From Rhodobiaceae bacterium (GTDB lineage Bacteria; Pseudomonadota; Alphaproteobacteria; RS24): a DNA stretch of 64,000 bases. Each line of letters begins with the position of its first letter. Position 1 is the stretch's first letter. Positions 51,713-56,773 of this stretch are shown piece after piece. The translations under genes and the position numbers were made by a program. The notes below the pieces were generated by a model. That model was not told where the DNA came from. It made no database searches and saw only the letters and a program-made list of their open reading frames with translations. The stretch covers positions 1 through 64,000 of the forward strand of contig PBLK01000007.1 of NCBI GenBank assembly GCA_002721725.1, in the 5' to 3' direction.

Positions 51713-53446
51713 ATGTTGCGTTATTCGTCAGTGCTGCGCTCAAATGCCGTGCGGCATCGCGAAATCAGTTACAATAAGCTGACACCGAAACCTGTGCGGG
51801 GCAAAAAGGACAGCCTCAAACCGCAGCGCTTACGTCTCGGTTTTGAGCAAACCATGGCGCTACTGATGCCTTATTCCGGTGTCCGAGTGCTGGATCAAAT
51901 GAAAGCGGTGATACCGCTGGCGCTTTATCTGGTGCTTTTCCAATTGATTATTTTACGCCAGCCCGTCGAGGCCGCCTTTTTGCTGGTTGGTGGTCTGACG
52001 GCGGTAATTGTCGGTTTGGCCTTGTTTATGGAAGGTCTGAATGTCGGTCTCATGCCGTTTGGCACGCTGATTGGTGATAAGCTGCCGCGCAAAGCCAGCA
52101 TGCCTGTCATGCTGGCCATTATTGCCGTTCTTGGTGTCGGTGTGACTTTTGCCGAACCGGCAATCGGGGCGCTACAAGCATTTGGTGCATCGGTTGATGT
52201 CACCCGCGCGCCATATCTTTATGAAATATTGAATAATTGGACCTTACCGCTTGTCTTGCTGGTCGGGGCAGGGGTCGGTCTCGCCGCCGTGCTCGGCACA
52301 TTGCGTTTTGTTTATGGCTGGTCGTTAAAGCCGATGATTTATATCGCGGTCGGTTTGACTCTGAGTCTCACCTTGGTGGTTTATGGTAATAATGATTTGC
52401 GTGCCATTTTAGGGTTGGCATGGGATTGCGGTGCGGTAACTACAGGGCCGGTAACCGTGCCTCTGGTCTTGTCACTTGGTATTGGCATTGCCAATTCAGC
52501 GGGTCAAAACAGCGATAATTCGCTATCCGGCTTTGGCGTGGTGACGCTGGCCTCACTGTTTCCGATTATTGCCGTTCTTCTGCTATCGCTTTATGTCAGC
52601 ACGCAAGTGAGTGCCGAACAGATTGTTGTTGCTGCCGCTACGGTGGGCAGCGCTACCGCCGACGCGCAGCAAAGCATTTGGGCGCAATCGCCGCTGCAAG
52701 AAGTTGTGCTGGGCGTGCGTGCTATTGCCCCGCTGGTCTTGTTCTTGATGTTTGTGCTGTTCATTGTGCTTCGTGAAGGGCTGGCCAATAAGCTGTTCAC
52801 CGCCTATGGGCTGGTTTTATCGATTGTCGGCATGTGTGTGTTTAATGTCGGTCTGACCTATGGGCTGGGCGCCATTGGCGCGCAAACCGGTGCGGTTTTG
52901 CCTGCCGCCTTTATGGAAATCGCGATTAGCGAAATTTCACCGATTTACACCGCAGCTTTGGGGCTGGTCTTGGTTATCCTTTTTGCTTGGTTTATGGGCT
53001 TTGGCGCGACACTGGCCGAACCGGCTTTGAACGCGCTGGGCTTGACCGTGCAAAATCTGACCAATGGTGCGTTTCGCAAATCCATGTTGATGTATTCCGT
53101 CGCCACCGGCGTGGCTTTCGGCATTGCTTTGGGTATTGCAAAAATCTTGTTTGAGATTGACCTCGCCATGTTGCTGATACCGCTCTATCTCATCGCGCTG
53201 GTTTTGACCTTTTTCTCAACCGAGGAATTCGTGAATGTCGCTTGGGACAGCGCCGGGGTCACTACCGGCCCGGTCACCGTGCCGCTGGTACTCGCTATGG
53301 GGCTGGGGCTGGGCAATGCCGTATCGGCGGTTGAAGGCTTCGGCATTTTGAGCATGGCCAGCATTGGGCCGATTATCGCCGTTTTGGGCATGGGACAATA
53401 TATTCGTTTCAAACAATCGCGCGCATTGACGGCGGAAGCCAAGTAG
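51713..53446 (+). CDS. DUF1538 domain-containing integral membrane protein (duplicated domain)
   Basis: LAWDCGAVTTGPVTVPLVLSLGIGIANS and VAWDSAGVTTGPVTVPLVLAMGLGLGNA repeats; many TM. Confidence 0.85.
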   Translation: MLRYSSVLRSNAVRHREISYNKLTPKPVRGKKDSLKPQRLRLGFEQTMALLMPYSGVRVLDQMKAVIPLALYLVLFQLIILRQPVEAAFLLVGGLTAVIVGLALFMEGLNVGLMPFGTLIGDKLPRKASMPVMLAIIAVLGVGVTFAEPAIGALQAFGASVDVTRAPYLYEILNNWTLPLVLLVGAGVGLAAVLGTLRFVYGWSLKPMIYIAVGLTLSLTLVVYGNNDLRAILGLAWDCGAVTTGPVTVPLVLSLGIGIANSAGQNSDNSLSGFGVVTLASLFPIIAVLLLSLYVSTQVSAEQIVVAAATVGSATADAQQSIWAQSPLQEVVLGVRAIAPLVLFLMFVLFIVLREGLANKLFTAYGLVLSIVGMCVFNVGLTYGLGAIGAQTGAVLPAAFMEIAISEISPIYTAALGLVLVILFAWFMGFGATLAEPALNALGLTVQNLTNGAFRKSMLMYSVATGVAFGIALGIAKILFEIDLAMLLIPLYLIALVLTFFSTEEFVNVAWDSAGVTTGPVTVPLVLAMGLGLGNAVSAVEGFGILSMASIGPIIAVLGMGQYIRFKQSRALTAEAK

Positions 53447-53456
53447 AGGAGGCGTT

Positions 53457-53879
53457 ATGGCCGATAGACAAATTACTTATCTCACCGATGCATTAATCAT
53501 TACCTGTATCGTGCAAGCAAGCCGCGCCGATACGATTGTTAAAGCGGCGCAAAATGTCGGCGCGCAAGGCGCGACGGTGACCTATGCGCGCGGCACAGGG
53601 GTGCGCGAGCGCATGGGGTTGATGGGTGTGACCATTGATGAGCAAAAAGAAATGGTGCGCATCATCGTATCTGAAGAGCAAGCTGACCGCGTATTTGAGG
53701 CAATGTATTTGGCCGGTGATTTGGACAAACCGGGCATGGGAATTATGTTTATGAATAAACTTGATCGCATTGCCACCTATATTCCCGATGAGGTTTTGGC
53801 CGAGGCCAATAAGCCTGCTGCCAAGCTGAAGAAACGCAAAACGGCGACCCGTCGCCCGACCAAAAAGGCGAAAAAATGA
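53457..53879 (+). CDS. PII-like (P-II family nitrogen regulator-like) protein with basic C-terminal tail
   Basis: LIITCIVQASRADTIVKAAQNVGAQGATVTYARGTGVRER T-loop-like region; tail KLKKRKTATRRPTKKAKK. Confidence 0.8.
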   Translation: MADRQITYLTDALIITCIVQASRADTIVKAAQNVGAQGATVTYARGTGVRERMGLMGVTIDEQKEMVRIIVSEEQADRVFEAMYLAGDLDKPGMGIMFMNKLDRIATYIPDEVLAEANKPAAKLKKRKTATRRPTKKAKK

Positions 53880-54163
53880 TTACCGAAATCGGGGCATTTA
53901 TGGTTAAGGGCGCGGGCCAAGAGCTGGTGCATGAATTGCATGATGACAAAAACATTCTGGGCATTTTCGTCGAAGCGGGGCGCACAGAAGATTTGTTCGC
54001 CTTTCGCGAATTCGGCTCGGCTTCGGAGAATGACATTGTCACCATATTGGTCGAGAACCGTCACGCCACCCGCATATTTGATTTGATGTGCAGCAAAATC
54101 GGCCTCGACAAACCGCAACGTGGCATGGTTTTCCAAATGCCGCTGCACAAACAACCGAAATAA
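53876..54163 (+). CDS. Short divergent PII-like protein
   Basis: 95 aa, overlaps previous gene by 4 nt (ATGA); IVTILVENRHATRIFDLMCSKIGLDKPQRGMVFQMPL resembles the previous gene's C-terminal half. Confidence 0.6.
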   Translation: MITEIGAFMVKGAGQELVHELHDDKNILGIFVEAGRTEDLFAFREFGSASENDIVTILVENRHATRIFDLMCSKIGLDKPQRGMVFQMPLHKQPK

Positions 54164-54247: not shown

Positions 54248-55657
54248 GTGACTGAAATTGAAACCGATTATCTGATAGTCGGCAGCGGTGCTATGGGCAT
54301 GGCGTTTGCCGATACTTTGTTGACCGAAAGCCAAGCCGATATGGTGATTGTCGATCGCCATGCCAAACCTGGCGGGCATTGGAATGTGGCTTATCCGTTT
54401 GTGCATTTGCACCAACCATCGAGTTTTTTCGGTGTTGCCTCGCGCGAATTGAGCCGATTTGAAAAAGACAAGGTCGGTTTCAATAAGGGGCTTTATGATT
54501 TGGCATCGGGGGCGGAAGTCAGCGCCTATTTTGATGATGTGATGCAGCAAACATTATTGCCGAGCGGGCGGGTGCGGTATTTCCCCATGTCGGATTATCA
54601 GGGTGACGGCGTATTCACTTCGCTGACCGGCGGACAAGAGACAAGAGTGAAATATAAAAAGCTGGTCGATGCGACCCGGTTGACGGTCGATGTGCCGATC
54701 GAGCACGACCCGGCGTTCACTATTGCCGATGGCGTTCAATTCATGCCGCTCAACAATTTGCCGACACTGAAAACCGCTCCGCAGGGCTATGTCATTATCG
54801 GCTCGGGCAAGACCGGCATGGATGCGTGTTTATGGCTGTTGCAAAACGGCGTTAGTGCCGATGCCATTCGCTGGATTATGCCGCGCGATGCTTGGATGCT
54901 GCCGCGCGAATTTGCCCAAAATTCAGAAGAATTTTTTGCCGATACATTCGGCAATCAGGCCAAGCAGTTTGAGGCTATGGCAGCGGCGGAAAATATCGAT
55001 GATATGTATGACCGTCTGGAAGCCGCCGGGTGTATGGTGCGGCTCGACCCTGAAGTGCGCCCGACCATGTTCCATGCCGCCACCATCAGTCACCCTGAAT
55101 TGGAAGCATTGCGTCGGATAAAAAACATTATTCGCATGGGGCGCGTGTCGGCTTTAGAGGTTGATAAAATCATTCTTGATGATGGCACCATGCCGACCGG
55201 CCCTGATATTGTGCATGTCGATTGTTCGGCTAGTCTGTCGCGCACCATGCCAAAAATGTCGCCAAAGCCGGTATTTGACGGCGATGTCATCACCCCGCAA
55301 ACTGTGCGCAGCTTCATGCCGGTTTTCAGCGGGTCGATGATTGCCTATGTCGAAGCGCGTTATGATGATGCGGCAGAAAAAAACCGATTGTGCAATGTTG
55401 TGCCGCTGCCCAATCGGGCTGAGGATTTTGTGCCCATGACGTTGGCTGCAATGATGAACCAGTTTAATTGGTCGCAAGACAAGCCTTTGCGCCAATGGGT
55501 GCGTGACAATCGGCTCGATGGTTTCACCAAGCTGACCAATAATGTTGATCCTGATGACAAAGAAAAAATGGATATTATGCTGCGAATTCGCGACAATGCG
55601 CCCAAAGCGGTTGGCAATTTGATGAAGCTGGCTGAGACAATCGACGCACCCGCATAG
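54248..55657 (+). CDS. NAD(P)/FAD-dependent oxidoreductase (flavin monooxygenase-like)
   Basis: DYLIVGSGAMGMAFADTLL Rossmann; GGHWNVAYPFVHLHQPSSFFGV; GYVIIGSGKTGMDACLWLL. Confidence 0.8.
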   Translation: MTEIETDYLIVGSGAMGMAFADTLLTESQADMVIVDRHAKPGGHWNVAYPFVHLHQPSSFFGVASRELSRFEKDKVGFNKGLYDLASGAEVSAYFDDVMQQTLLPSGRVRYFPMSDYQGDGVFTSLTGGQETRVKYKKLVDATRLTVDVPIEHDPAFTIADGVQFMPLNNLPTLKTAPQGYVIIGSGKTGMDACLWLLQNGVSADAIRWIMPRDAWMLPREFAQNSEEFFADTFGNQAKQFEAMAAAENIDDMYDRLEAAGCMVRLDPEVRPTMFHAATISHPELEALRRIKNIIRMGRVSALEVDKIILDDGTMPTGPDIVHVDCSASLSRTMPKMSPKPVFDGDVITPQTVRSFMPVFSGSMIAYVEARYDDAAEKNRLCNVVPLPNRAEDFVPMTLAAMMNQFNWSQDKPLRQWVRDNRLDGFTKLTNNVDPDDKEKMDIMLRIRDNAPKAVGNLMKLAETIDAPA

Positions 55658-55666
55658 GAGGAGTTT

Positions 55667-56773
55667 ATGGCTGAATTTCAAACCCACAAAAACGATATTA
55701 CCAAAACCCGTTTGGCAGATGTCGGCAATCAAGTTGACGATTTCATACTGGCAGATGGCGAAATTTTGGTGAAAGTCGAACGCTTCTCATTCACCGCCAA
55801 TAATGTGACTTATGGCGCGGTTGGTGAACAAATCGGCTATTGGCAATTTTTTCCGCCGCATCTGACCGATGGCGATGATGCCGATTGGGGCATTGTGCCG
55901 GTTTGGGGGTTTGCTGAAATTGTCGCCAGCAATAATCCCGATATGAAAATCGGTGAGCGTAGCTATGGTTATTTCCCAATGGCCAATTATTTGAAAATGT
56001 TGCCGGTGCGCGTGTCCGATGACCGCTTTGTCGATGGTGCGCCGCACCGTGCCGAATTGCCTGCCGTTTATAATAGCTATGACCGTCTTGGCACGGGGCA
56101 GTCGCAAAATGACAATTTGCGCGCTTTGCTAAACCCGCTTTACGGCACTTCTTATTGCTTGTGCGATGCCTTGCAGGAAGAAAATTATCGTGATGCTGAG
56201 CAAGTGGTGATTTTATCGGCATCGTCAAAAACCGCCATCGGTTTGGCCTTTGGCCTGTCGCAAATTGACGGTGCGCGCCCGGCCATTATCGGTCTCACAT
56301 CGCCGGGCAATGTTGGTTTTGTCGAGAAGACCGGCAGCTATGATATGATTATCGGCTATGATGATTTAAGCCCCTTGCCGAATAAACCTTCCGTGCTGGT
56401 TGATATGTCGGGCAATCGCGCCGTGTTGGGCGCGGTGCATGGGGCGCTGGGCGATAATATGTATTGGTGCCATAATGTCGGCTTGACGCATTGGGATGAC
56501 AGCGAAACCAAAAACGCTCCGGCGGCGGCGCAATTGATTGGCGCGCGCAGCGCCATGTTCTTCGCGCCGGGTCATATTGCGCGGCGTGCCGAAGAATGGG
56601 GCGCGATGGATTTCAATCAAAAAGTTGCCGCTTTTCTGGCCGATGGCATGGCTCATGCGGACACTTGGCTTGATGTTCACGAAACGCATGGCCTCCAAGC
56701 TTTCGAGCCCATTTATAGTCGCGTCGTTATTGGTGATTTGCGCGCCGAAGAGGGCATTATCATCGCCCTGTAA
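55667..56773 (+). CDS. DUF2855 family protein
   Basis: ILVKVERFSFTANNVTYGAVGEQIGYWQFFP; VVILSASSKTAIGLAFGL; MDR-like organisation. Confidence 0.8.
   Translation: MAEFQTHKNDITKTRLADVGNQVDDFILADGEILVKVERFSFTANNVTYGAVGEQIGYWQFFPPHLTDGDDADWGIVPVWGFAEIVASNNPDMKIGERSYGYFPMANYLKMLPVRVSDDRFVDGAPHRAELPAVYNSYDRLGTGQSQNDNLRALLNPLYGTSYCLCDALQEENYRDAEQVVILSASSKTAIGLAFGLSQIDGARPAIIGLTSPGNVGFVEKTGSYDMIIGYDDLSPLPNKPSVLVDMSGNRAVLGAVHGALGDNMYWCHNVGLTHWDDSETKNAPAAAQLIGARSAMFFAPGHIARRAEEWGAMDFNQKVAAFLADGMAHADTWLDVHETHGLQAFEPIYSRVVIGDLRAEEGIIIAL

Follow-up and report, generated by a model that had tools for sequence, protein, structure and literature searches.

What does a duplicated membrane protein do when its gene is followed directly by two different PII-like genes? 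The locus that raises this question lies in a 64,000-nucleotide stretch of a Rhodobiaceae contig (PBLK01000007.1), which is referred to here as the window. Its three open reading frames, all on the forward strand, encode proteins of 577, 140, and 95 amino acids, and we call the products of the second and third PIIa and PIIb (Table 1). The membrane protein gene is separated from that of PIIa by 10 nt, and the PIIa and PIIb genes overlap by 4 nt (ATGA), such that the PIIb start sits within the PIIa stop; when the frames were re-read, these distances and the coordinates given in an earlier, sequence-only reading proved exact. A promoter and terminator scan returned matches no more numerous than in shuffles. 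The best explanation of this layout is a translationally coupled three-gene cassette. Reasoning from sequence and analogy, we propose, with a probability of roughly 0.58, that the fused membrane protein exchanges monovalent cations for H+ and that a PIIa-PIIb assembly gates this antiporter.

Table 1. Features of the cassette, in window positions
Feature	Position	Strand	Basis
Membrane protein with two DUF1538 domains, UmpA-like half joined to UmpB-like half; putative antiporter of monovalent cations and H+	51713..53446	+	PF07556, two matches
ISYNKLTP within the N-terminal tail, which is variable and modeled with low confidence; candidate docking site for a regulator	51764..51787	+	Inferred
Motif copy 1, WDCGAVTTGPVTVPLVLSLGIGIAN, with invariant D238	52421..52495	+	Sequence; 80-half alignment
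Motif copy 2, WDSAGVTTGPVTVPLVLAMGLGLGN, with invariant D512	53243..53317	+	Sequence; 80-half alignment
AGGAGG ribosome-binding site of PIIa	53447..53452	+	Sequence, 4 nt 5' of ATG
PIIa, P-II family protein	53457..53879	+	PF00543, 42.3 bits
Shortened T-loop of PIIa, ARGTGVRERMGLMGVTIDEQK	53586..53648	+	Alignment with the genome's own GlnB-type protein
C-terminal tail of PIIa, rich in Lys and Arg; lineage-specific	53814..53876	+	Restricted to the window's genus
PIIb, second, divergent PII-like protein	53876..54163	+	hhalign to PIIa family, fold search, dN/dS

The membrane protein is built from two related halves. PF07556 (DUF1538) matches it twice (whole-protein E 2.7e-103; 344.2 bits against a gathering cut-off of 22.6), and the halves are 32% identical to each other (E 3e-25), as the earlier suggestion of a duplicated membrane fold had it. 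Each half carries one copy of the motif VTTGPVTVPLVLxxGxGxxN, at W237-N261 and W511-N535. Across 80 aligned DUF1538 halves, taken from both split and fused forms, the D, TT, TVP, and GxG of this motif occur in all 80, and a GFG is likewise invariant. Every one of these halves also has a second acid, the Glu of AEPA/AEPAL (E148 and E436 in the window's protein). These glutamates, with D238 and D512, are natural and likely candidates for ion and proton binding.

Function has been measured for one DUF1538 pair. UmpAB of Halomonas zhaodongensis is a heterodimer of two DUF1538 proteins that, between pH 6.5 and 9.5, exchanges H+ for Na+, Li+, or K+; it was found by screening in E. coli devoid of its main Na+/H+ antiporters (PMC5484666). 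Because a DUF1538 pair has measured cation/H+ antiport, a transporter is to be preferred over a channel, the other option that had been raised at the outset, and the statement made then that the substrate is unknown is outdated for the family, although it still stands for the fused member. The cloned fragment active in E. coli contained, of the system's genes, umpA and umpB alone, and the paper makes no mention of PII (PMC5484666). A PII protein is therefore dispensable for activity, which permits regulation but does not demonstrate it. Within the fused protein, the best stretch for the NCBIfam UmpA model spans residues 59-293 (206.9 bits against an equivalog cut-off of 490) and that for UmpB residues 335-571 (167.4 bits against 500). 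We distinguish type II loci, with fused DUF1538-PIIa-PIIb, from type I loci, with split UmpA/UmpB or a shorter fused protein and one PII. Nine UmpA and one UmpB proteins from type I loci fall below the same cut-offs (320-391 bits), so the models are narrow. A sequence search for a solved DUF1538 structure found none, and a medium-confidence model of the window's protein gave no usable match in the PDB (best E 0.015, TM 0.15).

Named GTDB genomes were scanned with the fused protein as query, and the best 80 loci were kept. PIIa lies directly 3' of the fused gene in all 80, and a second PII-like gene comes next in 78, the other two loci stopping at a contig edge; in 4 of the 78 this second gene scores higher with the PIIa profile than with our narrow first PIIb profile. 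Most of the 80 loci are from Alpha- and Gammaproteobacteria, with others on contigs labeled Nitrospinota, Nitrospirales, Planctomycetota, Zetaproteobacteria, and Desulfobulbaceae; many source contigs are metagenome bins, for which single taxon labels may be wrong. The gene order that the sequence-only reading wished to see elsewhere is thus conserved in several phyla. Intergenic gaps are mostly −4 to +30 nt. Genes outside the cassette are not conserved (46 families downstream, 44 upstream), and the cassette is therefore self-contained. A GST gene (50961) and an oxidoreductase/DUF2855 pair (54248-56773) were considered as parts of the unit and rejected, both being conserved in near relatives only; the latter pair, encoding an FAD/NAD-type oxidoreductase and a DUF2855 protein, adjoins the cassette only within the window's genus (L103, L105-L109).

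So that the survey did not depend on DUF1538 as its sole entry point, 399 Pseudomonadota genomes were searched for PIIa and, independently, for the fused protein. Fused DUF1538 genes number 40 in these genomes, as do places with a strong PIIa match (E < 1e-30), and the two sets pair up except that two pairs are split over contig ends (G275, G147) and one PIIa is partly masked (G199). In two genomes (G299, G045) PIIa lies beside a broken or divergent DUF1538. The pairing is near-exclusive in these 399 genomes.

Some cassettes have neighbors that place them in an ion-transport context. A CPA1 Na+/H+ exchanger gene adjoins 6 of the 80 cassettes (L150, L173, L175, L180, L181, L182; Nitrospinota and Gammaproteobacteria), and five of the six exchangers end C-terminally in a cyclic-nucleotide-binding domain; trkA follows one cassette (L094). 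In about a dozen marine alphaproteobacterial loci (L110-L147), genes for one or two small proteins (145-158 aa) with a cyclic-nucleotide-binding domain lie 38-94 nt upstream of the cassette, in the same orientation. Several of the loci with such neighbors come from related genomes and do not count as independent. The fused protein might instead carry a different cargo, such as an organic anion, ammonium, or a divalent metal, with the PII pair sensing the substrate or its product. UmpAB is the sole DUF1538 pair assayed (PMC5484666), the window's fused form is ∼33% identical to the other fused DUF1538 lineage and scores below the UmpA/UmpB cut-offs, and PII-like genes also adjoin heavy-metal/proton antiporters (PMC7726332). 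Against this, the acidic and TTGPVTVP residues are identical in all halves compared, Na+/H+ exchanger genes adjoin 6 of the 80 cassettes and trkA one, and a machine-learning study places DUF1538 among pH-adaptation families (PMC13255231). We regard a different cargo as improbable, while taking it as the most serious of the alternatives.

PIIa is a recognizable PII protein, as its first description implied: it matches PF00543 with an E of 9.8e-11 (42.3 bits against a cut-off of 25). Its T-loop is ∼5 residues shorter than that of the genome's own GlnB-type protein and carries R-E-R, with no Tyr51. Residues G46, G48, R50, R52, G54, and K64 are conserved in at least 73 of the 80 loci, and PIIa thereby retains the T-loop base glycines as well as a Lys equivalent to K58 (K64, 79/80). 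The classical ATP/2-oxoglutarate residues of GlnB and GlnK are K90, R101, and R103, which hold the ATP phosphates. Aligned with the genome's canonical PII, PIIa has neither these three nor the T-loop Tyr51: the R101 position is Thr in 78/80 loci, and K90 and R103 are substituted in the representatives. Because these equivalents are missing, the ligand of PIIa probably differs from the classical MgATP/2-oxoglutarate set. The very basic C-terminal tail noted earlier is real but confined to the window's genus, being absent from same-family genomes (L063-L065) and from distant relatives, and is not to be read as mechanism; a role as membrane or RNA anchor was rejected as a general feature. In L067 (8076-8543) the tail is a KPAK repeat, and its length varies between genomes, resembling a rapidly evolving segment of low complexity.

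The targets of many PII proteins are enzymes or regulators. PIIa and PIIb could likewise form a cytosolic signaling unit that targets transcription or another enzyme, sharing expression with the transporter but never touching it. Type I-like PII genes without DUF1538 neighbors do exist (L193, L194, L195), and in L194 and L195 such a gene precedes dusB-like and nitrogen-type sensor-kinase-like genes, as judged by eye. What makes this reading quite unlikely is that pairing with DUF1538 is near-exclusive in the 399 genomes, that no other neighbor is conserved, and that pairing with a transporter is the commonest mode of PII genes in operons, as in GlnK-AmtB and SbtB-SbtA (PMC3831643, PMC8352866).

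PIIb has no match in Pfam or NCBIfam, PF00543 included, and the PIIb proteins of distant relatives reach PF00543 with values of 0.0017-0.063, below the cut-off. Compared with the PIIa family by hhalign, it aligns at 98.3% (E 1.5e-14). Its AlphaFold model (pLDDT 79) has the β-α-β-β-α-β order of strands and helices of PII, and the 20 best PDB matches to that model are all PII/GlnK proteins, although weak (E 0.003-0.01; none at E ≤ 0.001). Judged by profile alignment and predicted fold, PIIb belongs to the PII superfamily, and its original designation as PII-like holds. It is the most divergent of the three gene products (26% identity to its counterpart in L094). In a PII tree all sampled PIIb proteins form one clade apart from PIIa (SH-aLRT 100); the tree has few columns and mostly weak deep forks and is used for the broad split between PIIa, PIIb, and Clostridia only. 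For all three genes, dN/dS against near relatives is mostly 0.03-0.17 (PIIb mostly 0.04-0.17), with dS saturated in several comparisons, and all three are under purifying selection.

The commoner arrangement has UmpA and UmpB either as separate genes or fused into a shorter protein, and after them a single PII of a different subfamily; it is found in 26 of 28 Pseudomonadota loci picked across genera, and two type I loci from one family (L082, L096) have no neighboring PII. In ∼18 of the one-PII loci, a CBS-pair gene directly follows the PII gene (four checked by Pfam). In four plasmid records from Clostridia whose downstream frame is readable (Paraclostridium, Peptoclostridium, Vescimonas, Acetoanaerobium), DUF1538 is followed by a protein of 217-224 aa, which NCBI names P-II in the first three. 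Except in Vescimonas, where the C-terminal half alone scores as PII, both halves of this protein match PII profiles (E 1e-12 to 1e-15 for the N-terminal half; hhalign 96.4%). On these domain assignments, a putative antiporter with two sensor modules recurs as PII+PII, as fused PII-PII, and as PII+CBS. The Clostridia PII halves fall outside the PIIb clade in a small tree, and there are hints that separate duplications gave PIIb and the Clostridia PII-PII protein. We consider it an even bet that these are cross-phylum cation/H+ antiporters, each with two dedicated nucleotide or metabolite sensors (PIIa+PIIb, PII-PII, or PII+CBS), in which double PII arose at least twice. That PIIb is instead a decaying PIIa duplicate with no role of its own is scarcely credible: it is the most divergent gene and has no Pfam match, but it is kept in all 78 loci that run far enough, shows low dN/dS, forms its own clade, and has a parallel in Clostridia, which keep a second PII domain as a fusion.

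Three further loci deserve mention. One genome (G092) carries both kinds of cassette consecutively, UmpA-UmpB-PII in split form and DUF1538-PIIa-PIIb in fused form (L200, 1741-6752). In another (G163), the DUF1538 genes are split and accompanied by one PII whose sequence, GSGVREKLG, is intermediate (L192, 2337-4097); this locus may connect the forms with one and with two PII genes. In Peptoclostridium acidaminophilum, a ClC-type H+/Cl− exchanger gene is convergent to the DUF1538/PII-PII pair (L208, 4599-7130).

The reading we prefer, a PII-gated antiporter, would work as follows. The membrane protein would be a single-chain UmpAB-type antiporter that swaps monovalent cations (Na+, K+) for protons, with the invariant Glu of AEPA and the invariant Asp of WDxxxVTTGPVTVP in each half as likely ion and proton sites. 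PIIa and PIIb would be its dedicated cytoplasmic regulators, probably combined in one oligomer of PII type that would dock on the membrane protein. The natural PII-PII fusions beside DUF1538 in Clostridia lend some indirect support to the heteromeric gating that the sequence-only reading suggested. A possible docking element is found at the N terminus: type II membrane proteins have a 50-residue tail, predicted to be disordered, with a conserved ISYNxLxP (S19 in 75, Y20 in 67, and N21 in 72 of 80 loci), and residues 1-29 of the model have pLDDT < 50. The separate UmpA proteins inspected begin at the first membrane helix, without this tail. We infer that a short conserved segment in a variable tail may be a docking site, which it resembles. 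Binding of a small ligand would then open or close the antiporter, as SbtB does on SbtA and GlnK on AmtB.

PII proteins are sensors of nitrogen, carbon, and energy. If the proposal is correct, two metabolic signals would meet on Na+/K+ and pH homeostasis, direct PII gating would also cover the balance of salt and pH, and would do so in many marine and sediment bacteria not yet in culture, and the DUF1538 family would gain a function and a partner. With its three small genes, the cassette would also be a simple natural example of cooperation between two different PII proteins. PII control of transporters is already known (GlnK-AmtB, SbtB-SbtA), as is a PII gene beside a proton/cation antiporter (PII-NG/CzcABC), the only case of a PII-like protein with an antiporter that we found in the open-access literature. 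The pairing of a DUF1538 protein with two PII proteins suggests that metabolic signals directly gate salt and pH balance in a manner that this literature does not describe: it yielded no tie of DUF1538 or UmpAB to PII and no double-PII transporter.

Among the closest known systems, UmpAB shares the Pfam family, the two related halves, the invariant acids, and TTGPVTVP (PMC5484666; NCBIfam NF041627/NF041628). In contrast, the window's halves are joined in one chain that has an extra N-terminal tail, scores below the equivalog cut-offs, and is followed by two PII genes. The SbtA-SbtB system, for which there is a structure of the bicarbonate transporter with its PII-like protein, also has, within one operon, a transporter gene and after it a dedicated PII-like gene, and the transporter is built from two structural repeats, but family and substrate are different, there is one PII-like protein rather than two, and SbtB binds cAMP/AMP (PMC8352866). 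PII-NG genes adjoin CzcABC proton/cation antiporters and so also place a PII-family gene beside a proton-driven cation antiporter, although there it is a single PII with an RND metal pump of another transporter family (PMC7726332). In GlnK-AmtB, too, a dedicated PII is encoded beside a membrane transport protein; AmtB, however, is an ammonium channel, and GlnK has the full-length T-loop and the classical ATP/2-oxoglutarate residues that PIIa lacks. NifI1 and NifI2 are two different PII proteins that act as a pair on nitrogenase, and their genes are adjacent, as here, although their target is an enzyme rather than a transporter. As in SbtA-SbtB and GlnK-AmtB, a dedicated PII gene is conserved beside the transporter gene throughout the family of cassettes to which the window's belongs.
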